Origin: Candidatus Coatesiibacteriota bacterium
Lineage (GTDB): Bacteria > RBG-13-66-14 > B26-G2 > WVWN01 > G020348885
DNA: 41,623 bases
NCBI GenBank assembly: GCA_020348885.1
Contig: CP070755.1
Coordinates: forward strand, 949,261-990,883
Reading direction: 5' to 3'
Part shown: positions 1 through 25,924 of the stretch, one piece after another
How positions within the stretch are numbered: the stretch's first letter is position 1
Layout of the letters: each line of letters begins with the position of its first letter
The notes under the pieces: generated by a model
The model's input: the letters and a program-made list of their open reading frames with translations, nothing else
Databases searched by the model: none
Told to the model about the DNA's origin: nothing
Translations under genes and position numbers: made by a program

Positions 1-167
1 GGAGTATAGAGCTTCCGTCGGGCGTGGAGATGGTCAAGCCGGGTGACAACGTGAACATGGACGTGGAGCTGATAACGCCGATCGCGATGGAGAAGGAGCT
101 CAGGTTCGCGATACGGGAGGGCGGACGTACGGTAGGTGCCGGCGTCGTTACCGGAATAAAAGAGTAG
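1..167 (+). CDS. tuf: Elongation factor Tu, C-terminal fragment (tuf copy 1, 5' end outside window)
   Basis: This is the last 54 residues of EF-Tu, the GTPase that delivers aminoacyl-tRNA to the ribosome. The reading frame runs from base 3 ([11 protein letters not shown]) to a TAG at 165-167 and ends in the domain III signature [17 protein letters not shown]. It aligns base for base with 16639-16805 of the complete second copy, with six differences in 167 bases. One of these changes the protein: Lys here replaces Met in GVEMVxPGDN, where E. coli and Thermus EF-Tu also have Met. Homology ends right after the stop codon. The window edge lies inside a repeated gene, which is where assemblies often break. 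The call is certain; the full length of this copy is unknown. Confidence 0.97.
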
Positions 168-179
168 GCCGGCCCGGAA

Positions 180-350
180 ATGGCAAAGAAGGGCAAAAAC
201 ATAATTATCGGTTTGGAATGTTCCGAATGTAACGAACGGAACTACGTCACCTACAAGAACCGGGAAAAACACCCGGACAAGCTGACGTTGAACAAGTACT
301 GCCCTAGGTGCCGACGCCACACCGGACATAAGGAGTGTAAAACCGCGTAA
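180..350 (+). CDS. rpmG: 50S ribosomal protein L33 (zinc-binding form)
   Basis: Small large-subunit protein of 56 residues near the E site. Four cysteines (C14, C17, C41, C44) form the two CxxC knuckles of the zinc-binding C+ form, and the Lys/Arg-rich body with [16 protein letters not shown] is typical of the family. The ATG at 180 lies 12 bases after the tuf stop, behind a weak GGCCCGG stretch. The order tuf-rpmG-tRNA-Trp-secE-nusG is common in bacteria. The C+ form implies that the protein needs zinc; no C- paralogue is visible in the window. Confidence 0.95.
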
Positions 351-411
351 CAGCGGTATAACCTTAGAACCTATACCTTTAGCCGCGGCTGTTGTAAGGC
401 GATTATAAATA

Positions 412-485
412 AGGGCCATAGCTCAACTAGGCAGAGCACTTGACTCCAAATCAAGCGGTTGGGGGTTCGATTCCCTCTGGCCCTG
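412..485 (+). tRNA. trpT: tRNA-Trp (anticodon CCA)
   Basis: A full cloverleaf can be folded by hand. The acceptor stem AGGGCCA pairs with TGGCCCT, the D arm has GCTC/GAGC, and the anticodon stem CTTGA/TCAAG holds the loop CTCCAAA, so the anticodon is CCA. The T arm GGGGG/CCCTC encloses TTCGATT, and the discriminator base is G. The 3' CCA is not encoded (AAA follows), so it must be added by the nucleotidyltransferase. It sits between rpmG and secE, the conserved location for this tRNA, and is probably processed from the operon transcript: a TATAAA at 404-409 lies too close to the mature 5' end to be its -10 box. Confidence 0.96.
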
Positions 486-568
486 AAATTAATAGGCCCG
501 GTAACGTGGCCGGGTGTGATAAACGTAGACGGCCGCCGTATTAAACCGGATTAGACGCGGAGACCGAT

Positions 569-748
569 ATGAAAAGGCTATGGACGTTTTTAATGGAGGT
601 TCGCGCCGAACTAAAGAAAGTAACGTGGCCTACGTGGGTCGAGCTCGTCAGTTCAACGGTCGTCGTAATAATTACGTCGATACTATTCGCGGTCGTAATA
701 GGTATATGGGATAAAATCCTCGAGCGTCTGGTAGTCATATTATTGTAG
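569..748 (+). CDS. secE: Preprotein translocase subunit SecE
   Basis: Short-form SecE of 59 residues, an essential membrane clamp of the SecYEG channel that partners the SecY encoded at 26400. The conserved amphipathic segment RAELKKVTWPTW (about residues 12-23) precedes one membrane span (about 26-46, rich in V and I). The ATG at 569 follows GGAG at 560-563, and the stop is TAG at 746-748. It lies between tRNA-Trp and nusG as in most bacteria. The length matches the single-span family found outside the Enterobacteria. Confidence 0.95.
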   Translation: MKRLWTFLMEVRAELKKVTWPTWVELVSSTVVVIITSILFAVVIGIWDKILERLVVILL

Positions 749-771
749 CGCGGTTTAAAGGCCAATCGTCT

Positions 772-1566
772 GTGGAAAAAGAACTCGAACATAACGAAAG
801 GGTCCTACCGGAGGGTGAAGAGACTCTCGCTGAAACCGACGACGCGCCGGTCACCGCTCGTACCGCGGTCGATACTGAACCGGGGACGGACGACCCGATA
901 ATCGCCGTCGCCGACGAAGAAGCGAGCATAGCCGAAGCTTCGACGGTCGAAGGGGAAACCGAAACGGACGAGCAACTACAACCGGAGGAACTGGAGCGGT
1001 TAATAGAACTACGAGTGGCCGACCCGGGCCGGCCCGATTTACATTGGTACGTGGTGCATACGCTCACTGGGCACGAAGAAAAAGTAAAAACTAGTATTTT
1101 GAAATCGATCCAGGACAGCGACTTGCAAGATTGCTTCGAAGAGGTTCTCGTACCTACCGAGGAAGTTACTAAAACTACGAAGAAAGGGAAGAAGACTTCG
1201 CGAAAGGTTTTTTTCCCCGGCTATATAATGGTAAGGATGGTAATAAACGAAAAGACCTGGTCGTTGGTCCGGGGAACGCCGGGCGTTACCGGTTTCGTAA
1301 AGACCGGTACGTTTCCGGTGCCGTTGAGCCCGGAAGAGGTCCGAATTACGCTAGACCAGATAGAAGGCCGCAAACCCCGGGTCGAGTACGTGGTGGACTT
1401 CGAACCGGGGGAATCGGTTAAGATAACCAGCGGGCCGTTCGCGGGGTTCACGGCCGTCGTCGAAGACGTATACCCGGAACGCCAGAAGATAAAGGTATTG
1501 GTTACGGTCTTCGGACGCGCCACGTCGGCGGAACTCGAACTTTCAGAAGTGGACAAAACCCGGTAA
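772..1566 (+). CDS. nusG: Transcription termination/antitermination protein NusG with acidic N-terminal extension
   Basis: NusG binds RNA polymerase across the cleft and couples transcription to Rho or to ribosomal protein S10. The NGN domain begins at W92 (WYVVHT) and includes the loop VFFPGYIMVRM. The KOW domain follows at about 207-264 (GESVKITSGPFAGF, VFGRAT). The protein has 264 residues against about 175-185 for most bacterial NusG. The excess is a roughly 85-residue N-terminal stretch dominated by Glu, Asp, Thr and Ala, with no recognised domain. The GTG at 772 is chosen because the frame stays open and compositionally protein-like. A GTG at 1015 would give a normal-length NusG but would leave a 266-base gap and lacks a nearby ribosome binding site. 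The NusG identity is certain; the start is likely but unproven. Confidence 0.93.
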   Translation: MEKELEHNERVLPEGEETLAETDDAPVTARTAVDTEPGTDDPIIAVADEEASIAEASTVEGETETDEQLQPEELERLIELRVADPGRPDLHWYVVHTLTGHEEKVKTSILKSIQDSDLQDCFEEVLVPTEEVTKTTKKGKKTSRKVFFPGYIMVRMVINEKTWSLVRGTPGVTGFVKTGTFPVPLSPEEVRITLDQIEGRKPRVEYVVDFEPGESVKITSGPFAGFTAVVEDVYPERQKIKVLVTVFGRATSAELELSEVDKTR

Positions 1567-1592
1567 GTAAACGGTAACGGACTGGTGTAGTT

Positions 1593-2015
1593 ATGGCGAA
1601 AAAGGTTACGGGTATTATTAAGTTGCAGGTCCCGGCGGGCCAGGCAAATCCGGCGCCGCCGGTCGGGCCGGCCCTCGGGCAGCACGGGTTGAACATAATG
1701 CAATTCTGTAATCAGTTCAATGAAGCGACCAAGGACCAGGCCGGTCTAATTCTGCCCGTGGTGATTACGGTATATAAGGATAAGAGTTTCACTTTCATAA
1801 CGAAGACGCCGCCGGCGGCGGTGTTATTGAAGAAAGCCGCGAATCTGGCGAAGGGCTCGCCCGAACCTAACAGGGAGAAGGTCGGTACCGTAACGATGGC
1901 CAAAGTGAAAGAGATAGCCGAACTTAAGATGCCGGACTTGAACGCGTCGTCGGTCGAAGCGGCTGTAAAAATTATTGAGGGTACGGCCCGGAGCATGGGG
2001 ATCGACGTAGTATAA
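1593..2015 (+). CDS. rplK: 50S ribosomal protein L11
   Basis: L11 (140 residues, usual length 140-145) forms the GTPase-associated centre with 23S rRNA and is the target of L11 methylation and of thiopeptides. The N-terminal sequence [20 protein letters not shown] with its proline cluster is diagnostic. The C-terminal rRNA-binding domain has [11 protein letters not shown] and ends GTARSMGI. The ATG at 1593 follows the nusG stop by 26 bases. It opens the rplKAJL run, which in E. coli is autoregulated by L1; I did not identify an L1 site here. Confidence 0.97.
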
Positions 2016-2052
2016 ACAAATACGTCCGTACGGCGTTACGGCGGAGTTAGAG

Positions 2053-2754
2053 ATGGCGGGAAAGAAATATAAAGAATCCAGGTTAAAAATCGACCGTTCC
2101 ATGGAATACGGTTTGGACGACGCTTGTCGGTTGACGAAAGAATGTGCGTACGCCGGGTTCGATGAATCGGTAGATCTGGCGTTCCGTCTCGGCGTGGACC
2201 CCAAGCACGCCGACCAGATGGTTCGGGGTTCGGTCAGTCTGCCCCACGGAACCGGGAAGACTCCGGTAGTACTCGTGTTCGCCAAAGGCGAAAAGGTGAA
2301 AGAAGCCGAAGCCGCCGGCGCCGATTACGTCGGCCTCGAGGAGTACGCGGAAAAGGTCCAGAAAGGTTGGATCGAGTTTGACGCCGTCGTCGCGACGCCC
2401 GACGTGATGAAAGAGGTCGGGAAACTCGGGAAGGTTTTGGGGCCCCACGGCTTGATGCCCAGCCCGAAGACCGGTACCGTTACGTTCGACGTGGGTCCGG
2501 CGGTCGACCAGATAAAAAAGGGCAAGGTCGATTATAAGGTGGACAAAGGCGGTAACGTCCATATTCCCGTGGGTCGCGTTAGCTTCGACGCGAAAGAACT
2601 TTTCGAAAACGCCGCCGCCGCGATAGAATCCGTCGTAAAAAACAGGCCCGCGTCGGCGAAAGGTACGTATCTGAAACGTTTGACGATTAGCACGACCCAC
2701 GGCCCGGGTATCAGGATAAACCGGCAGGAAGTGCAGTTGATGGTCGCTGGATAA
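2053..2754 (+). CDS. rplA: 50S ribosomal protein L1
   Basis: L1 (233 residues, usual length about 230) builds the L1 stalk that escorts deacylated tRNA from the E site, and in many bacteria it represses the L11-L1 mRNA. Two-domain L1 signatures are visible: [20 protein letters not shown] near the N-terminus, [19 protein letters not shown] in the middle and [17 protein letters not shown] at the end. The start is ATG 2053 after GGAG at 2042-2045. It lies between rplK and rplJ with short spacers. Confidence 0.97.
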
Positions 2755-2779
2755 TTGCGGCCGTCTCCTGGAGCGAAAT

Positions 2780-3586
2780 ATGGCTCTTACGTTGGAACAG
2801 AAAAAGAACGCCTTGTCTATACTGGTCGAAGAGTTCGGCCGGGCCGGCGGCGTAATCTTTACCGACTTCCGCGGCGTGAACGTCGACGGTATGACCGGTC
2901 TCCGCCGCGAGATGAGAGAGAAGGAACTCCGCTATTTCGTTTCCAAGCGGACGTTGATAAGCCGGGCTTTAAACGAAACGGAAATCGAAGTACCCGACGA
3001 GTTCCTTGACGGCGCCACAGGGCTGGTGTTTACCGACGAAGAACCCGTAGCGGCTTCCAAGGTGGTCGAAGACTTCCGGAAGGAGTTCCCGTCGTTTATC
3101 GTTAAAGGCGGGATCATGGGCGCCGTAACTTTGGCGCCCGCGGATATCAAATCGCTGGCGAAAACGCCGCCTCGGGAAGAACTACTCGCGAAGTTCGTTT
3201 CGTCTTTGAACTCGCCGATTTCGAATCTGGCGAACGTAACCGCCGGGATCTTAAGGGCCTTCATAAAAGTACTAAACGCCGTGGGTGAAACAAAAGGCGA
3301 GACAGAAAAAACCGGCGAGACAAGTGAATCTACCGGAACCACAAAGGATAGCGTGCCCAAAGAGGATTCGGGAATCGAGGAAGCTGTAGAAGCCGAAGAA
3401 TCTACAGGGGCGGAAGAAGCCGGCGCGACTGAAGAAGCTGGCGAAACTGACGAAGGTTCGGGAACCGAAAAAACTGTAGTGACGGAAGACGCCGGCGGAC
3501 CCGAAAAAACTGGCGAAAGCGAAGAGGTTAGCGGGACCGAAGAAGTTGACGGGATTGAAAAGGATAGTGGAACCGAAAAAGAATAA
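2780..3586 (+). CDS. rplJ: 50S ribosomal protein L10 with a long acidic repetitive C-terminal tail
   Basis: L10 anchors the L7/L12 stalk on the ribosome. Residues 1 to about 172 are an ordinary L10: EFGRAGGVIFTDFRGV, then REMREKELRYFVSKRTL, and the C-terminal helix ISNLANVTAGILRAFIKVLN that binds L7/L12 dimers. A tail of roughly 95 residues follows, made almost only of Glu, Thr, Gly, Ser, Ala and Asp. It is built from degenerate units such as TGE, GTEK, EEAG and TEE. The total of 268 residues compares with 165-180 usually. The frame is open without interruption and ends with TAA at 3584-3586. rplL follows, so stalk genes stay together. The tail's role is unknown; it could be disordered and surface exposed. 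Confidence 0.95.
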   Translation: MALTLEQKKNALSILVEEFGRAGGVIFTDFRGVNVDGMTGLRREMREKELRYFVSKRTLISRALNETEIEVPDEFLDGATGLVFTDEEPVAASKVVEDFRKEFPSFIVKGGIMGAVTLAPADIKSLAKTPPREELLAKFVSSLNSPISNLANVTAGILRAFIKVLNAVGETKGETEKTGETSESTGTTKDSVPKEDSGIEEAVEAEESTGAEEAGATEEAGETDEGSGTEKTVVTEDAGGPEKTGESEEVSGTEEVDGIEKDSGTEKE

Positions 3587-3640
3587 CTAACGTCATATAC
3601 TTAAGAAACGTCGTATATCCAGTACCAGGAGGAAGTAGAA

Positions 3641-4027
3641 GTGGCAAAGATGACTACAGACGAGCTAATAGACGTCATTAAAGAGATGACGGTTCTAGAG
3701 CTTTCCGACTTCGTCAAGGCGGTCGAGGACGAGTTCGGCGTAACCGCGGCCGCGCCGGTGGCGCCGGTAGCCGCGGTCGGCGCTCCCGCTGGCGGGGAAA
3801 CCGCGGCCGAGGAGAAGTCCGAGTTTAACGTCGTCTTGAAGGACGTGGGCGACCAGAAGGTTAAGGTTATCAAAGCGGTTCGTGAAGTAACTAGCCTGGG
3901 TTTGAAGGAAGCCAAGGAACTGGTCGAAGGCGCGCCGGTCACCGTCGCGGAAGGGCTATCGAAAGCTGACGCGGACGCGGCAAAAGCGAAAATCGAAGAG
4001 CAGGGCGCTACCATCGCCGTTGAGTAA
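3641..4027 (+). CDS. rplL: 50S ribosomal protein L7/L12
   Basis: Acidic stalk protein of 128 residues that recruits translational GTPases. The N-terminal dimerisation helix ([20 protein letters not shown]) is followed by an Ala/Pro/Gly-rich hinge (about residues 36-55). The C-terminal factor-binding domain has [20 protein letters not shown]. The GTG start at 3641 is fixed by AGGAGG at 3627-3632. As usual, rplL precedes rpoBC; a promoter-like site and a strong hairpin separate them, as described at 4048 and 4092. Confidence 0.97.
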
Positions 4028-4047
4028 CTTCACTTTATCTCGGGCTA

Positions 4048-4076
4048 TTGGCGAATCAGAGTAACCTAAATAGAAT
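4048..4076 (+). promoter_or_regulatory. Candidate sigma-70 type promoter upstream of rpoB
   Basis: TTGGCG at 4048-4053 and TAGAAT at 4071-4076 are separated by exactly 17 bases (4 of 6 and 5 of 6 consensus positions). The site lies in the 149-base rplL-rpoB spacer, so it could give rpoBC a supply of transcript independent of the ribosomal protein genes. Transcription would start near 4083, just ahead of the hairpin at 4092. Prediction by eye only. Confidence 0.45.
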
Positions 4077-4091
4077 GGATGGGGTTGTCGT

Positions 4092-4131
4092 AAAAAGGGA
4101 TGGCTGGCGGCATGTCGTCAATCCCTTTTTT
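4092..4131 (+). terminator. Hairpin with U-run between rplL and rpoB (attenuator)
   Basis: AAAAAGGGAT (4092-4101) pairs perfectly with ATCCCTTTTT (4121-4130), and the 3' arm ends in six T. The 19-base loop can form a further short stem (4106-4109 with 4116-4119). This has the shape of an intrinsic terminator. In E. coli the same spot carries a partial terminator that lowers rpoBC relative to rplL, so attenuation is the likely role. An outer helix between 4079-4086 and 4155-4162 could also enclose it and bring the rpoB ribosome binding site next to a stem. Confidence 0.8.
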
Positions 4132-4176
4132 GCGCCGTTTACGCGGTGTCGGTAAACCCCGTGGAGGTGTGGGACG

Positions 4177-7100
4177 TTGACGGTGGAACGGATAAATTTT
4201 TCGCGGATCCCTGATCCGATCGACCTGCCGAATCTACTCGATATACAGAAGAAATCATACGCGGAGTTCTTCCAGCACGAGGAGCTTCCCCAGAAGCGGC
4301 GGGAGGAAGGTCTGGAGTACGTCTTCCAGAATACTTTCCCGATTTACGACTTCAACGATGATTCCTTTATCGAGTTCGTGGATTATACGGTGGGGCTTCC
4401 GAAATTTACTATCGCCGAATGCAAGGTGAAGGGTCTAACTTACGCGGTTCCGCTGCGGGCCAGGTTCAGGTTGATCGTACGGGAACGGGAATCCGAAGAC
4501 GTCGAACCGAAGGTAAAGAACATACTCGAGGAAGAGCTTTACCTTGGCGAAGTACCCGTAATGACCGAGCGAGGATCGTTTATCATCAACGGCGCCGAGC
4601 GCGTGGTGGTAAACCAGCTGCACCGATCGCCGGGTTACGTTACTAAAGAGATTACCCATTCGAGCGGCCAGATACTCTATTCCGCTTCGATTATCCCGCA
4701 CCGCGGCTCCTGGTTGGAAATAGGTTTCGACACCAACGGTAACCTGAATTTTTCGGTGGACCGTACGAGCCGTCGCCCGAAAACACCGGTTACGGTCCTC
4801 ATACGGGCGTTCGGTTATGGCGACGCCCGCGAGATAGGCGAATTGTATCTGGACACGGAAAAAGCCGGGCCGACCAAGGATGTCGTCGGCCGATACTTAA
4901 CCGAGCCGGTCGTCGTGTCGTCCGACGGCGTGGAGACGACGTTGTTTAAACGTTTCACGCAATTGGAGGAAGCTCACCTTGACGTGTTGAAGGATAACGA
5001 TGTCAAGAAGGTAAACGTCTTTAAGGATACCGACGGCATCGAAGCTTCGTCGCTCGTACCGACCCTACAGAAAGACGACGAGAGTAAGGTAAAGACGAGG
5101 GAAGATGCGTTAATAAGGATTTATAGCGAACTCAGGCCGGGCGACTTGTCCAGTATCGAAACGGCCGAAAATTACTTCGAGAATTTATTCTTGAACCCGA
5201 GGCGCTACGACCTTAGCCGCGTCGGGCGGCTAAAATTGAACAAACGGTTCGGCCTGGAATTCGACCTGGAAGACCGAACGCTTCACAAGGAAGACGTAGT
5301 CGAAGCCGTTCGTTATATTCTCAAACTCCACTCGATAGAAGGCGATACCGACGACATCGACCATCTCGGCAACCGCCGGGTTAGGGCCGTGGGCGAACTC
5401 CTCGAGTACCGCTTTTTCGTCGGTCTCACGAGGATGGAACGGGTAATCAGGGAGCGCATGTCGATTCTCGATATCGACGAATGTATGCCCCGCGACCTGA
5501 TAAACGCCAAACCCTTGATGAGCGCTATACGCGAGTTCTTCGGTTCCAGCCAGCTTAGCCAGTTCCTGGATCAGATAAACCCGTTGGCGGAGCTTACCCA
5601 TAAACGCAAACTTTCGGCCGTGGGCCCTGGCGGTTTGAGTAGGGAGCGCGTGAACTTCGAGGTTCGCGACGTACATTATACCCATTACGGCCGGTTGTGT
5701 CCGATTGAGACGCCTGAAGGGCCGAATATAGGTTTGCTAAACAGCCTGGCTACGTATGGACGCGTTAACAAGTTCGGGTTTATAGAGACGCCTTACAGAA
5801 AGGTAAAAAAGGGTAAGGTTACCGACGAAATCGTTTACCTGGACGCCGACGAGGAGGACGAATACGTAATCGCCCAGGCGAACGCGCCGCTGGACAAGAG
5901 AGGCCGGTTCGAACGGGACGAAGTGTATGTCCGTGAGAGGGGAGAGTTCTTTTTGGTGCCACCGGAGCGGGTAGATTACATGGATATTTCGCCCCGGCAG
6001 CTCGTGTCTGTTTCGGCTTCGCTCATACCGTTCCTGGAGCACGACGACGCAAATCGGGCGCTGATGGGTTCGAACATGCAGCGTCAGGCGGTGCCGCTGG
6101 TAACCACCGAAACGCCTTTAATCGCGACGGGAACCGAGGAGCGTGTGGCTCGGGACAGTGGTGTTATGGTAATCGCCGAAGCTTCGGGCGAGGTGGAGAA
6201 GGTGACCGCCGACGAGGCGGTCATCCGGCCCGATACGGCAAAAGAAGACGCCGCTTATGGGTGGTTCGAACCTGATGTTTACAAATTGAAGAAATACCAG
6301 CGGACTAACCAGGACACTGCGTTCAATCAACGCCCGATTGTAAGGAAAGGCGATAAAGTTAAAGCGGGCCAAATAATCGCCGACGGGCCGGCGACGTGCG
6401 GGGGCGAACTCGCTCTAGGCCGGAATGTCCTCGTCGCGTTTATGCCGTGGATGGGATACAACTTCGAGGACGCGGTACTCGTCTCGCGGCGACTCGTGGA
6501 AAATGACGACTTTACTTCGATTCACATCGAGGAGTTCGAAATTGAGTGCCGTGAAACGAAGTTGGGGCGCGAGGAGATTACGCGGGACATCCCTAACGTA
6601 GGCGCCGACGCGCTTAAGAACTTGGACGACGAAGGGATTATATGGGTGGGCGCCGAAGTCCGGGCCGGCGACATTATGGTTGGCAAGGTAGTACCGAAAG
6701 GCGAAACCGAACTCACGCCCGAAGAGAAGTTGCTCAGGGCCATCTTCGGCGAAAAAGCGGGGGAAGTCCGGGACGCGTCGTTGAAAGCCCCGCCGGGGAT
6801 GAGTGGAATAGTCGTTGACGTAAAAGTATTCAGCCGTAAGGAAAGGGAGCGCGTTGATTCGAGGACGAGGGCGAAGGAAACTAGGGCTATAAACGTGCTC
6901 GAGAAAGAGAAAAACGAAAAAATCGAAGCGGCCCGGGAGATATGCGAAGCCCAGTTAACCAAATTGCTGAGCGGACAGACTTTTAATTACGACTTGACCG
7001 ACGAGTTGTCGGGCGAAGTATTGGCCGGTAAAGGGTCGAAGATTACGAAATCGAAGCTGAAGAAGGTACTGGAACCGACGATAGAAAAACGCGTGGAATT

Positions 7101-7959
7101 CCGTGGGGTGGTAGGCCGAAACGTCGCGAAGGTAGTAGGTCGTTACGTCGATTACGCCCACGAAACGTCCAGTAATATAGATAAGGAAATAGACCGTATA
7201 AGGAAGGGCGACGACCTTCCACCGGGCGTTTTAATGATGGTCAAGGTTTACGTGGCCAGGAAAAGGCGATTGACTATCGGCGATAAAATGGCCGGGCGGC
7301 ATGGGAACAAAGGTGTCGTCGCGAAAATACTCCCGACGGAAGATATGCCTTTTACTAAAGACGGTACGCCGGTGGATATCGTCCTCAACCCCCTAGGCGT
7401 CCCGAGCCGTTTGAACGTCGGGCAAATCCTGGAAACTCACTTGGGCTTGGCCGCCAATAAATTAGGGCTTTATTTCGAATCTCCGATTTTCGACGGCGCC
7501 ATGGAAGAGCAGATAAAGGATTATCTGGAGGAAGCCGGATATGATGCTTCCGGTAAGGTAATGCTGTTCGACGGGCGGACCGGGGAACCTTTCGCCGCGC
7601 CCGTTACGATAGGGCATATATATTTGATGAAGTTGTTACACCTGGCCGACGACAAGATACACGCCCGTTCGGTCGGGCCGTACAGCTTGGTTACCCAACA
7701 GCCGTTGGGCGGGAAAGGCCAATTCGGCGGGCAACGCTTTGGCGAGATGGAAGTCTGGGCCCTCGAAGCGTACGGCGCCGCTTATACCTTACAAGAGATG
7801 TTGACGGTGAAGTCCGACGATGTAATCGGACGGGCCAGAATGTACGAAGCGATAGTAAAGGGCCGTAATATACCGGAAGCCGAAACACCCGAATCGTTCA
7901 ACGTTCTGGTGCGCGAGTTGAGGGCTTTATGCCTCGATATAACGCCGGAGGAGGTGTAA
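4177..7959 (+). CDS. rpoB: DNA-directed RNA polymerase subunit beta
   Basis: The 1260-residue beta subunit forms one side of the catalytic cleft. Family landmarks appear in order: protrusion and lobe in the first 400 residues, the rifampicin region at about 455-490 ([20 protein letters not shown]), then [52 protein letters not shown] and the C-terminal clamp segment [14 protein letters not shown]. The TTG at 4177 follows GGAGG at 4163-4167 with nine bases between; a GTG at 4183 is the only close alternative. Relative to E. coli the rifampicin pocket has R529 replaced by Lys (K478) and S522 by Ala (A471), while D516, H526 and S531 are kept. The gene ends at TAA 7957-7959. Confidence 0.98.
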
Positions 7960-8016
7960 CAAGCTGGACTACGGGGAGTTATGACGGATTTGCCGGAGAA
8001 CGGATATTAAATAAAG

Positions 8017-8030
8017 ACGGGGGAACCCGT
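8017..8030 (+). promoter_or_regulatory. Small GNRA-type hairpin just upstream of the rpoC ribosome binding site
   Basis: ACGGG (8017-8021) and CCCGT (8026-8030) form a 5-bp stem closed by GGAA, a GNRA-type tetraloop. AAGGA (8031-8035) follows at once and is the probable ribosome binding site of rpoC. The 86-base rpoB-rpoC spacer also has GGAGGAGG at the end of rpoB (7948-7955), with no rpoC start beside it. The hairpin may tune rpoC initiation; this is inference from position. Confidence 0.35.
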
Positions 8031-8045
8031 AAGGACGGTGCGACT

Positions 8046-11000
8046 TTGATCTGGGGTTATTACGATACGGATAGAAGGAAGAAAAAGGATTTTTCGGCCG
8101 TTACGATAGGCATCGCGTCGCCGGAGAAGGTTCTTACATGGTCCCACGGCGAGGTAAAGAAAGCTGAGACGATAAATTACCGTACGTTCCGCCCGGAACG
8201 CGACGGCCTTTTCTGCGAACGTATATTCGGGCCGACCAAGGACTGGGAATGTTCGTGCGGTAAGTATAAGCGCATTAAGAACCGGAACGTCGTCTGCGAC
8301 CGGTGCGGCGTCGAAGTTACCGAGAGTCGTGTGCGCCGGGAACGTATGGGGCACATCAAACTCATAACGCCGTGTGCTCATATCTGGTTCGTGAAGGGTA
8401 CGCCCAGCTACATCGCGACGCTACTGGGCTTACGCGCCAAGGATATGGAAAGGGTGCTCTACTACGCGGCTTATCTGGTTGTCGACCCGGGCCTCGAAGA
8501 GACAGGATTGGCGAAGGGTCAGGTATTAACCGAGGAAGAGTACCGCGACGTAATGGGCCGTTTTCCGGGCGAGTTCCACGCCGAGATGGGCGCGCCAGCC
8601 GTCCGCGAGCTTCTTGCCGGTTTGGATCTTGACGCTCTTTCGGCGGAATTGAAGGTCGAGCTGGAAGAGACCGGCTCGAAGCAAAAGAAAAAGCAGATTA
8701 TCAGGCGGTTATCTATCGTCGAAGCCATGAGGACATCCGGGAACCGGCCGGAATGGATGATACTCGACGTTTTACCGGTTCTCCCGCCGGACCTCCGGCC
8801 GTTGGTTCCCCTCGACGGCGGCCGCTTTGCGACGAGCGACTTGAACGATTTATACCGGACGGTGATCAATAGAAACAACAGGCTACGCAAACTCATAGAA
8901 CTGAAGGCGCCGGACGTTATCCTTTGTAACGAGAAGCGTATGCTTCAGGAGGCGGTGGACGCCCTGCTAGACAACGGGCGCCGTGGTTACGTGGTCCGGG
9001 GGATGAACAACCGGCCCCTCAAGTCGTTGTCGGATAACCTTAAAGGTAAGCTCGGGCGCTTTCGGCAGAACCTACTCGGGAAGCGCGTCGACTACTCGGG
9101 CCGCGCGGTGATCGTCGTGGGACCGGAATTGAAACTACACCAGTGTGGGTTACCGAAGAAGATGGCGTTGGAGTTGTTCAAGCCGTTCATAATCCAGAAA
9201 TTGGAGGAACAGGGTTTCGTCCACACCATTAAGAGTGCGAAAAGGCTCGTCGAACAAGTCAAACCCGAGATATGGGACATCCTCGAGGAGGTCATACAGG
9301 ACCATCCGGTGTTATTGAACCGGGCGCCTACTCTCCATAGATTGGGTATCCAGTCGTTCCTGCCGGTACTGGTCGAAGGGTCCGCGATTAGAGTACATCC
9401 TCTAGTCTGTACGGCGTTCAATGCCGACTTCGACGGAGACCAGATGGCCGTACACGTTCCGATTTCGGTGGAAGCGCAGCTGGAAGCGAAAATGCTGCTG
9501 TTCAGCACGCGCAATATACTTTCGCCGGCCCACGGCGGCCCTCTGGCTGTCCCGTCACAGGATATCGTTCTGGGTTGTTATGCGTTGACGAAACCCAAGC
9601 CGGGCGAAAAGGGCGAAGGTAAATTTTTCGCGAACCAGGACGAAGCGTTATTGGCATACAGCCTCGGCGAGGTAGGGCGTTATGCCAACGTGAAAGTACG
9701 GGTAAACGGAGAGACCATCGAAACTACGATAGGCCGCCTTATATTCAACGACGTTTTACCGGCGGATTATCCTTACGTAAACGAGACGTTAGATAGAAAC
9801 GAGGTCGCCAAGGTAGTCGCCGACATATATAAACGCTACGGAAACGCCGAGACCGTCCGTGTTCTCGACGAGATTAAAAACCTCGGTTTTAAGTACGCTA
9901 CTCTTACGGGGGTTACGTTCGGCGTTGACGACCTTTTGATCCCGACCGAGAAAAAAACGCTGATTGACGAAACGAGGGAAGAGGTTTCCAAGATCGAGAA
10001 GGTTTACCAGGACGAAGCGATAACCTTCGGTGAACGTTACAACATGGTTATAGACGCGTGGACCCGTACGACCGATACACTCGGCGAAATGGTGTTTACG
10101 CAATTGGGCGAAGACCAGGACGGGTTCAACCCGGTTTTTATGATGGCCGACTCCGGCGCGCGGGGTTCTCGGACCCAGATACGGCAGTTGGCGGGGATTC
10201 GTGGGTTAATGGCCAAACCCCAGAAGAAGATAACCGGCCAGGTGGGCGAGATTATCGAACAGCCAATACTGTCCAACTTCCGGGAAGGGCTTTCGGTGCT
10301 CGAGTACTTCATTTCCACCCACGGCGGACGAAAAGGCTTGGCCGATACGGCCTTGAAGACGGCGGATGCGGGTTACCTTACGCGGCGCCTCGTCGATGTG
10401 GCCCACGACCTTATAGTCACGACAGACGACTGCCATACGCTTCTTGGGTTGGAAACGATGGCTATCAAGGAAGGCGAGGAGGTCATAGAACCGCTGAAAG
10501 ACCGCGTGCTGGGTCGCGTCGCTCTCGAGGACGTCGTCGATCCTATTACGGACGAGGTTTTGGTCGAGGCCAATACTGAGATTACCGAGGAACTCGCCGA
10601 GAAAATCGAAGACTCCCACGTGAAGTCAGTACGGATAAGATCCGTACTGACGTGCGAAGCGAAACGCGGCGTCTGCGCCAAGTGCTACGGGCGGAACCTC
10701 GCCCTTGGGAAGATGGTGGACGTAGGCGAAGCGGTGGGCGTTATAGCCGCGCAGTCAATAGGCGAACCGGGGACTCAGCTTACCCTACGGACGTTTCACG
10801 TCGGCGGAACCGCGAGCCGTATCGTAGAGCAGTCGGTTATTCAGGCAAAAGTCGCCGGGAAAGTGGATTTTAACCATCTCCGAGTCGCCGAACGGGAAAA
10901 AGGAACGAACGTAGTAATAAGCCGTAACGCGGAACTCTCGATTAAGGATATCGAAGGGCGTGTAACGATGACCTATCAGGTTCCTTACGGAGCCGTATTG

Positions 11001-19941: not shown

Positions 19942-20496
19942 ATGGAGTTCAGGGCCGTCCAAAAGTGGGAACGTATTTCGCCGGTGAAGGCTCGGCTCGT
20001 CGCCGATAACGTCCGGGGGCTGGACGTTCAGGACGCCCTCGAGATGTTGATGTTCATGCCCCAAAAAGCGGCGAAGATTATATACAAGACCGTCGCGTCC
20101 GCTCTGGCGAACGCCGAACACGTAGAAGGCGGAGAAAAACCAGACGTGGACCGGCTATACGTAAAAACCCTGACGGTCGATACCGGCCCGACGTTGAAAC
20201 GCATTAGCTATCGGGCGTACGGGCGCGCCAATAGGAAGCGGCGCCGTATGTCCCACGTGACGGTGGTCCTCGCGGAGCGCGAGTTGGCTGACGACGAGCT
20301 GGGAAAGAAGAAAGAGCACCGTACGAGTTTCTTCCGCAGAAGGAAAAAAGAGCGCGTCGAAACAGAAGAGGATGCGGTGGAGGCGAAGCCCGGAGCGCCG
20401 AAACAACCGAGGCGCCCGCGCAAGAAGAGCAGGAAGAAACTTACCGAAGAGCGTAAGGGGAAACGCAAGACCGTACAGAAACGGCCGGAACAGTAA
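19942..20496 (+). CDS. rplV: 50S ribosomal protein L22 with a basic C-terminal extension
   Basis: Residues 1 to about 115 are normal L22: ISPVKARLVADNVRG, ASALANAEHV, and the tunnel beta-hairpin GPTLKRISYRAYGRANRKRR. L22 is usually 110-120 residues, but this one has 184. The extra 70 or so residues are mainly Lys, Arg and Glu (RKKERVETEEDAVE, then RRPRKKSRKKLTEERKGKRK) and look disordered. ATG 19942 and the TAA at 20494-20496 bracket one open frame. Extensions of L22 occur in some lineages; what this one binds is unknown, although rRNA is the obvious guess. Confidence 0.95.
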   Translation: MEFRAVQKWERISPVKARLVADNVRGLDVQDALEMLMFMPQKAAKIIYKTVASALANAEHVEGGEKPDVDRLYVKTLTVDTGPTLKRISYRAYGRANRKRRRMSHVTVVLAERELADDELGKKKEHRTSFFRRRKKERVETEEDAVEAKPGAPKQPRRPRKKSRKKLTEERKGKRKTVQKRPEQ

Positions 20497-25261: not shown

Positions 25262-25924
25262 ATGGCACAGGATAGTTTCGTCGAAGACAGTGGACTACAG
25301 GAGCGAGTCGTCGCGATAAACAGGGTCGCGAAAGTCGTTAAAGGCGGACGCCGGTTCGGTTTCAACGCGCTAGTCGTCGTGGGCGATGGCGCCGGAAGCG
25401 TAGGATACGGTCTTGGGAAAGCCAACGAAGTAGCGCTAGCCGTAAATAAGGGCGTCGAACTCGCGAAGAAAAACTTAATGGAAATCCCGATAATAGACGG
25501 GACTATTCCGCATGAGGTCGTTACCAAGTACGGGGGGGCCAGGGTAATGATAAAACCGGCGTCGCCCGGTACGGGGGTTATCGCCGGGAGCGCTATGCGC
25601 GCCGTCCTAGAGCTAGCCGGCGTACATAATATATTGACCAAGTCCTTCAGGTCGAACAACCCGCACAACGTTATCAAGGCTACGTTGAAAGCCCTGGAAG
25701 AGTTGAAACATCCCGACGAAGCCGCGATACGGAAAGGCTTGGGAGTTAAACGGGCTGAGAAAGCCGAGAAAAAGGAAGACGTGAAGGTAAGCGTCCGGCG
25801 CCGCCGGAAAAAGCGGCGGGCCGGCGAAGAACCCGAAACGGAAACGACCGCCGCCGAATCCGCTGCGCCGGACGATGTGTCGGCGGAAGAAATAGAAGAA
25901 GAAGCGGAAGAAGAAAACGAATAG
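25262..25924 (+). CDS. rpsE: 30S ribosomal protein S5 with charged C-terminal tail
   Basis: S5 helps maintain decoding accuracy. The core has [39 protein letters not shown] and [20 protein letters not shown]. The core ends near residue 170, the usual full length, but this protein has 220 residues. The extra part is a basic block ([15 protein letters not shown]) followed by a strongly acidic Glu-rich tail ([12 protein letters not shown]). The start is ATG 25262. The next gene is normally rpmD (L30), but only 28 bases separate this stop from the rplO start, so rpmD is absent here. Confidence 0.96.

Follow-up and report, generated by a model that had tools for sequence, protein, structure and literature searches.

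The window, by which we mean the whole 41,623-nucleotide stretch of DNA analysed here, carries rplK-rplA-rplJ-rplL-rpoB in the order usual for bacteria, with ORFs at 1593, 2053, 2780, 3641 and 4177. Three genes of the region, nusG, rplJ and rplL, were named by NCBIfam, and rplK, rplA and rpoB were named from reading. The features of the rplJ region are collected in Table 1. The rplJ product, whose stop codon lies at 3584-3586, is a genuine bacterial L10: the NCBIfam model NF000955 matches residues 6-172 with 139.2 bits (cut-off 85) and the Pfam model PF00466 matches residues 5-101 with 80.9 bits (cut-off 22.8), this being the sole PF00466 match in the genome. The L12 encoded by rplL matches its NCBIfam family end to end and is a separate ORF, hence there is no single-ORF fusion of L10 and L12 here. 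A second, partial L12-like match elsewhere in the same genome (L171, G000:C1:27544-27618) reaches the family cut-off only with its neighbours.

Table 1. Features of rplJ and its downstream neighbour, in window coordinates
Feature	Position	Strand	Basis
rplJ, ribosomal protein L10 (uL10), 268 aa	2780-3586	+	ORF, NF000955, PF00466
L10 conserved core, residues 1-170	2780-3289	+	pLDDT, alignment to T. maritima L10 (PDB 1zav)
Long C-terminal helix, predicted, residues 132-177	3173-3310	+	AlphaFold2; L12-binding by homology
Acidic tail, predicted disordered, residues 171-268	3290-3583	+	Composition, pLDDT, charge-hydropathy
16 diverged hexapeptide (18-nt) units, roughly G-T-E-(E/K)-x-(G/S)	3296-3583	+	Period-6 signal, synonymous-codon null, hexad listing
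AGGAGG, likely Shine-Dalgarno of rplL	3627-3632	+	Read from sequence
rplL, ribosomal protein L7/L12, separate gene	3641-4027	+	TIGR00855, 149.2 bits, cut-off 84.4

Beyond its conserved core L10 continues into a tail of 98 residues (E27, T16, G15, S9, K8, A7, D6, V6, P2 and I2) with a net charge of -25. The tail contains 33 Asp or Glu and 8 Lys, with no aromatic residue, Leu or Met, and a Pfam search with the tail alone gave no match. The long C-terminal helix of L10 is described as the L12-binding element (PMC4592705), and the preliminary description of this DNA had claimed a long acidic tail following it; that tail is real and runs past the predicted helix.

An assembly frameshift or other artefact might be suspected here, given that the genome is a single contig whose polishing state is not stated. 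However, the annotated frame is free of stop codons over 3290-3583, whereas the other two have 3 and 8 and would encode basic peptides, and the in-frame start of the tail, TKGETEKTGET, is similar to the short L10 ends of relatives in the same order (KETEGETATRA, QKGTETENAGN). Furthermore, at a lag of 18 nt the identity between repeat units is 0.63, 0.57 and 0.51 for codon positions 1, 2 and 3, and position 3 is also the least identical at lags of 36, 54, 72 and 90 nt, as would be expected if the annotated frame is the constrained one. We regard an artefact as very improbable.

The same pattern bears on the idea that the tail is not a protein feature but one of the RNA or DNA, such as a promoter or a structure that controls rplL. 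The tail region does lie directly upstream of rplL, and a promoter and terminator scan of 2700-4200 found a weak sigma-70-like match (9/12) at 3555-3584, at the tail end, with two matches of this level in 1.5 kb against 0.4 expected. Such a match is unable to explain a repeat of 98 residues, however, and variation between units is greatest at third codon positions. RNA folding of 3290-3660 gave a stability no greater than that of shuffles (z 0.02), and an Rfam scan of window positions 1-9000 at gathering scores returned only a tRNA. This explanation is scarcely credible to us.

An AlphaFold2 model of L10 made with 34 sequences has a mean pLDDT above 90 in each 10-residue block of residues 1-170, falling to 45-60 in the blocks of the tail, with no secondary structure past residue 177. 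The fraction of charged residues in the tail is 0.42 and the net charge per residue -0.26; its mean hydropathy of 0.355 is on the disordered side of the charge-hydropathy boundary, for which the formula gives 0.505. From the disorder prediction suggested in the preliminary description, the tail is probably an intrinsically disordered polyanion.

Self-comparison of the tail at a period of 6 residues gives 32 matches as opposed to 13.5 +/- 3.1 in residue shuffles (z about 6), and at a period of 12 residues 27 as opposed to 12.7 (z 4.5). The repeats were also examined at the DNA level, against a null in which synonymous codons were shuffled without altering the protein sequence. Identity at third codon positions at 18 nt (0.51) exceeds this null of 0.36 +/- 0.04 (p about 0.0003), as it does at 36 nt (p 0.04) and 72 nt (p about 0.001), with no significant excess at 90 nt (p 0.12). 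Hence the units appear to descend, at least in part, from 18-nt duplications of the DNA. Adjacent units share 57% DNA identity at this lag, which indicates that most of the array is not recent. The repeats had been described as recently expanded, and this is true at most of a short part, 3413-3455 (2.4 copies, 84% matches), which is the youngest-looking in the array.

An array of this kind could have grown almost neutrally, by slippage or unequal duplication of 18-nt units at a solvent-exposed C-terminus, with the acidic bias left behind as basic or hydrophobic tails were purged. Codon usage is in line with this: GC3 is 0.41 in the tail vs 0.68 in the L10 core, which fits relaxed codon selection, and the Thr codon ACA makes up 5/16 of Thr codons in the tail vs 2/66 in rpoB.

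Fourteen genomes of the phylum were searched, and among them there is no other from the same family. All four genomes of the same order (G001-G004) have an L10 that ends 11-12 residues past the core. Absence from close relatives, which the preliminary description had named as evidence against the tail, was therefore found in part, namely at the level of the order; it points to a lineage-specific feature rather than an error, and it also favours near-neutral growth. Within the same class, one L10 has 8 extra residues (G006) and another (G005; loci L012/L104) carries a differently built, K/E-rich tail of 221 residues, 83 acidic and 58 basic, with its strongest periods at 25 (z 8.1) and 31 (z 6.6) and weaker ones at 6 and 12 (z 4.0). 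This difference in construction again fits near-neutral growth. Elsewhere in the phylum L10 ends within 7-10 residues (G007, G008, G010) or 6-9 residues (G013), and the frames in G009 and G011 (175 and 174 aa) leave no room for a tail; the gene is split over two contigs in G012.

In a wider survey of 386 genomes sampled around that of the window (G000), 371 matched an L10 profile and 15 did not. The profile was built from 19 L10 rows, tail length being counted as residues beyond its last column, and every L10 match with a stop-to-stop frame of at least 203 aa was examined with the exception of a weak second hit in G269 (E 8.7e-4); in G330 the gene is a contig-edge fragment. Extensions of 40 residues or more that lack an L12 domain were found in 13 of the 371 L10 genes, under nine family labels, which bears out the earlier statement that a long L10 tail is uncommon. 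The lengths are 98 (G000), 221 (G005), 95 (G019), 93 (G306), 96 (G167), 52 (G165), 66 (G079), 50 (G220), 49 (G350), 81 (G186), 76 (G342), 49 (G378) and 47 aa (G337), and all 13 non-fusion extensions are net negative (-7 to -34). Shorter acidic tails, again all net negative, occur in at least G206 (36 aa), G064 (32 aa), G122 (31 aa), G250 (29 aa) and G346 (26 aa), and a Peregrinibacteria MAG (L041), alone among 11 loci of named assemblies, carries an acidic L10 tail of 44 aa with net charge -13. This last locus and two further genomes considered below, G386 and G388, lie outside the count of 13/371. The acidic L10 tail is thus unusual but not unique, being found also on L10 of unrelated bacteria. 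Judging by family labels rather than a tree, we infer that the tails of different lineages arose independently. A search of titles and the beginnings of abstracts in the open-licence literature yielded no paper on acidic tails of bacterial L10.

The survey brought up other forms of L10. In four of the 371 genomes L10 and L7/L12 are fused in one uninterrupted ORF (L018 in G040, L125 in G187, L135 in G323 and L139 in G307), and this ORF is the only PF00542 match in each of the four (completeness 89-100%). All four junctions have GGAGG followed by an in-frame start, ATG in three and GTG in one, from which sequence it would seem that free L12 may also arise by internal initiation. These fusions are possibly more interesting than the tail. 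Two f23 genomes (L123 in G031, L133 in G178) have about 86 and 100 residues inserted in the L10 core near profile positions 64-70, similar by eye to helix-hairpin-helix sequence. Genome G388, with 9% contamination, has two L10 matches (L173, L176), one with a 56-residue acidic tail and the other with 5 extra residues, and is probably a mixed bin.

Two families have several tailed members. With G386 added by an extra search, all four f11 genomes carry tails of similar size and charge (95, 93, 96 and 100 aa; net -34, -32, -31 and -39), whereas tail identity in the three pairs compared is 33-48% vs 58-78% in the core. For the pair G019-G306 dN/dS is about 0.23 in the tail vs 0.12 in the core, from a gapped alignment with high dS, and tail dS is saturated in the other two pairs, making this the sole pair for which an estimate could be had. 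Both the conservation of length and charge and the low ratio tell against near-neutral growth, and f11 provides the best evidence for what would be selection on tail length and charge. In f71, tails of 49-66 aa are present in four of five genomes, G388 included, the fifth (G387, 67% complete) giving no L10 match. Tail dN/dS here is about 0.64 (G220-G350), 0.47 (G079-G220) and 0.21 (G079-G350); values of up to 0.64 imply weaker constraint than in f11 and are on the side of near-neutral growth.

Other proteins of this genome were considered with regard to such segments. Among 384 crudely called ORFs (about 440 kb), six, L10 and NusG included, contain an acidic disordered-like 50-mer, which suggests that segments of this kind are tolerated in the genome, if not everywhere. 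NusG (window 772-1566) is extended at its N-terminus by about 90 residues of acidic character, its profile match starting at residue 92, and the NusG ORFs seen in the same order have N-terminal extensions that are shorter or less clear. S5 (window 25262-25924) runs on at its C-terminus for about 58 residues, at first basic and then acidic, with the profile ending at residue 162 of 220, and L22 (window 19942-20496) carries about 75 additional residues that are charged and for the most part basic, with the profile ending at residue 109 of 184. That three further proteins in the window are extended is consistent with near-neutral growth. Against it, L1, the operon neighbour of L10, is never extended by more than 5 aa at its C-terminus in the 116 loci fetched, some of which repeat a genome. 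The median pI of the 384 ORFs is 5.2. This pI is not obviously that of a halophile and gives no sign of a salt-in lifestyle, and the salt adaptation put forward in the preliminary description receives no backing from it. With regard to the temperature adaptation also put forward there, the IVYWREL fraction of these ORFs is 0.414.

From these data we favour, with a probability of roughly 0.45, a model where the part of L10 that follows the L12-binding helix has expanded to form a disordered polyanion of 98 residues, kept for its length and charge. Growth would have started from a short ancestral tail of E/T/G type, as in the relatives of the same order, and would have proceeded by duplication of 18-nt units in the DNA. 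The function would then depend on charge and length, the tail acting as an electrostatic bristle rather than a binding motif. Close to the base of the stalk, an expanded chain of negative charge would repel rRNA, tRNA and mRNA, so that free L10(L12)n or the stalk would make fewer non-specific contacts; this charge would add to that of L12, whose copies are acidic. In uL10, a cluster of negative residues is described as directed towards the mobile helix H43 of the stalk base (PMC11711686), suggesting that negative charge at this site is physically meaningful. On the other hand, the core of L10 already has an acidic pI (5.44) and L12 has a net charge of -11 per copy, so that the charge added by the tail may matter little. 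Near-neutral growth is a real possibility that we rate somewhat lower, and the two readings lie close together.

A broader form of the charge-and-length model would make disordered, acidic extensions of L10, about 50-100 residues long, a recurrent, convergent element of the stalk, selected for length and net charge and not for sequence, and tuning the stalk electrostatically, with this genome as a long, repeat-built example. We consider this generalization unlikely as it stands. If the tails are selected, they would give a universal, much-studied part of the ribosome an electrostatic layer that does not depend on sequence, and a comparative test could draw on the several separate tailed cases. 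If they are neutral, the L10 C-terminus would be one site at which low-complexity growth is tolerated in an essential ribosomal protein, in contrast to the neighbour L1, which is unextended in the loci examined.

Comparison with known systems begins with bacterial L10 itself. The core and C-terminal helix of T. maritima L10 (PDB 1zav), the rest of its chain included, align over query residues 3-174, and unlike the L10 described here that protein is tailless. The search for solved structures yielded 29 sequences, and in none of them does the best-matching stretch extend beyond query residue 174.

In archaea and eukaryotes the stalk base protein P0 (uL10) has an acidic flexible C-terminus, and the C-terminal ends of the stalk proteins bear a hydrophobic hook that binds translation factors. 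The acidic flexible C-terminus is the point of likeness to the present L10, and the tail might by the same token recruit or tune translation factors directly: it sits on the stalk adjoining L12, and the C-terminal domain of archaeal aP1 is described as binding EF1A (PMC6791870). The tail, however, lacks Leu, Met, Phe, Trp and Tyr and so has no P0-like hook, and L12, which recruits the factors in bacteria, is encoded here and complete to its family model. We therefore find direct recruitment improbable. A P0-type identity for this uL10 was also rejected, as there is no hydrophobic motif in the tail and three PRK04019-type models score 24.3-35.1 bits, far below their cut-offs of 331-381.

Hfq is likewise a bacterial protein that binds RNA and ends in an acidic, disordered segment (PMC5606850), and its example raises the idea that an RNA-mimicking tail autoinhibits RNA binding by L10. 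The L10(L12)4 complex is described as binding RNA and autoregulating rplJL in E. coli and B. subtilis (PMC4538822), the acidic tip of the Hfq C-terminal domain as competing with non-specific RNA (PMC5606850), and D/E repeats as able to speed target search among decoys (PMC10250230). Two of these sources (PMC5606850, PMC10250230) also lend the charge-and-length model its mechanistic support, by analogy only. The L10 core differs from that of Hfq in being acidic, with 14 K+R against 19 D+E in residues 1-100, which weakens a self-masking role of the Hfq type, and window positions 1-9000 hold no L10 leader above the Rfam gathering score. Binding of the L10 tail to its own protein would be hypothetical, and we hold autoinhibition to be even less probable than factor recruitment.

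Counterparts are also found in the acidic L10 tails of f11, f71, f56, f104 and others and of the Peregrinibacteria locus, which occupy the same place and are likewise low in complexity and net negative, with other repeat units and another composition than the tail described here.
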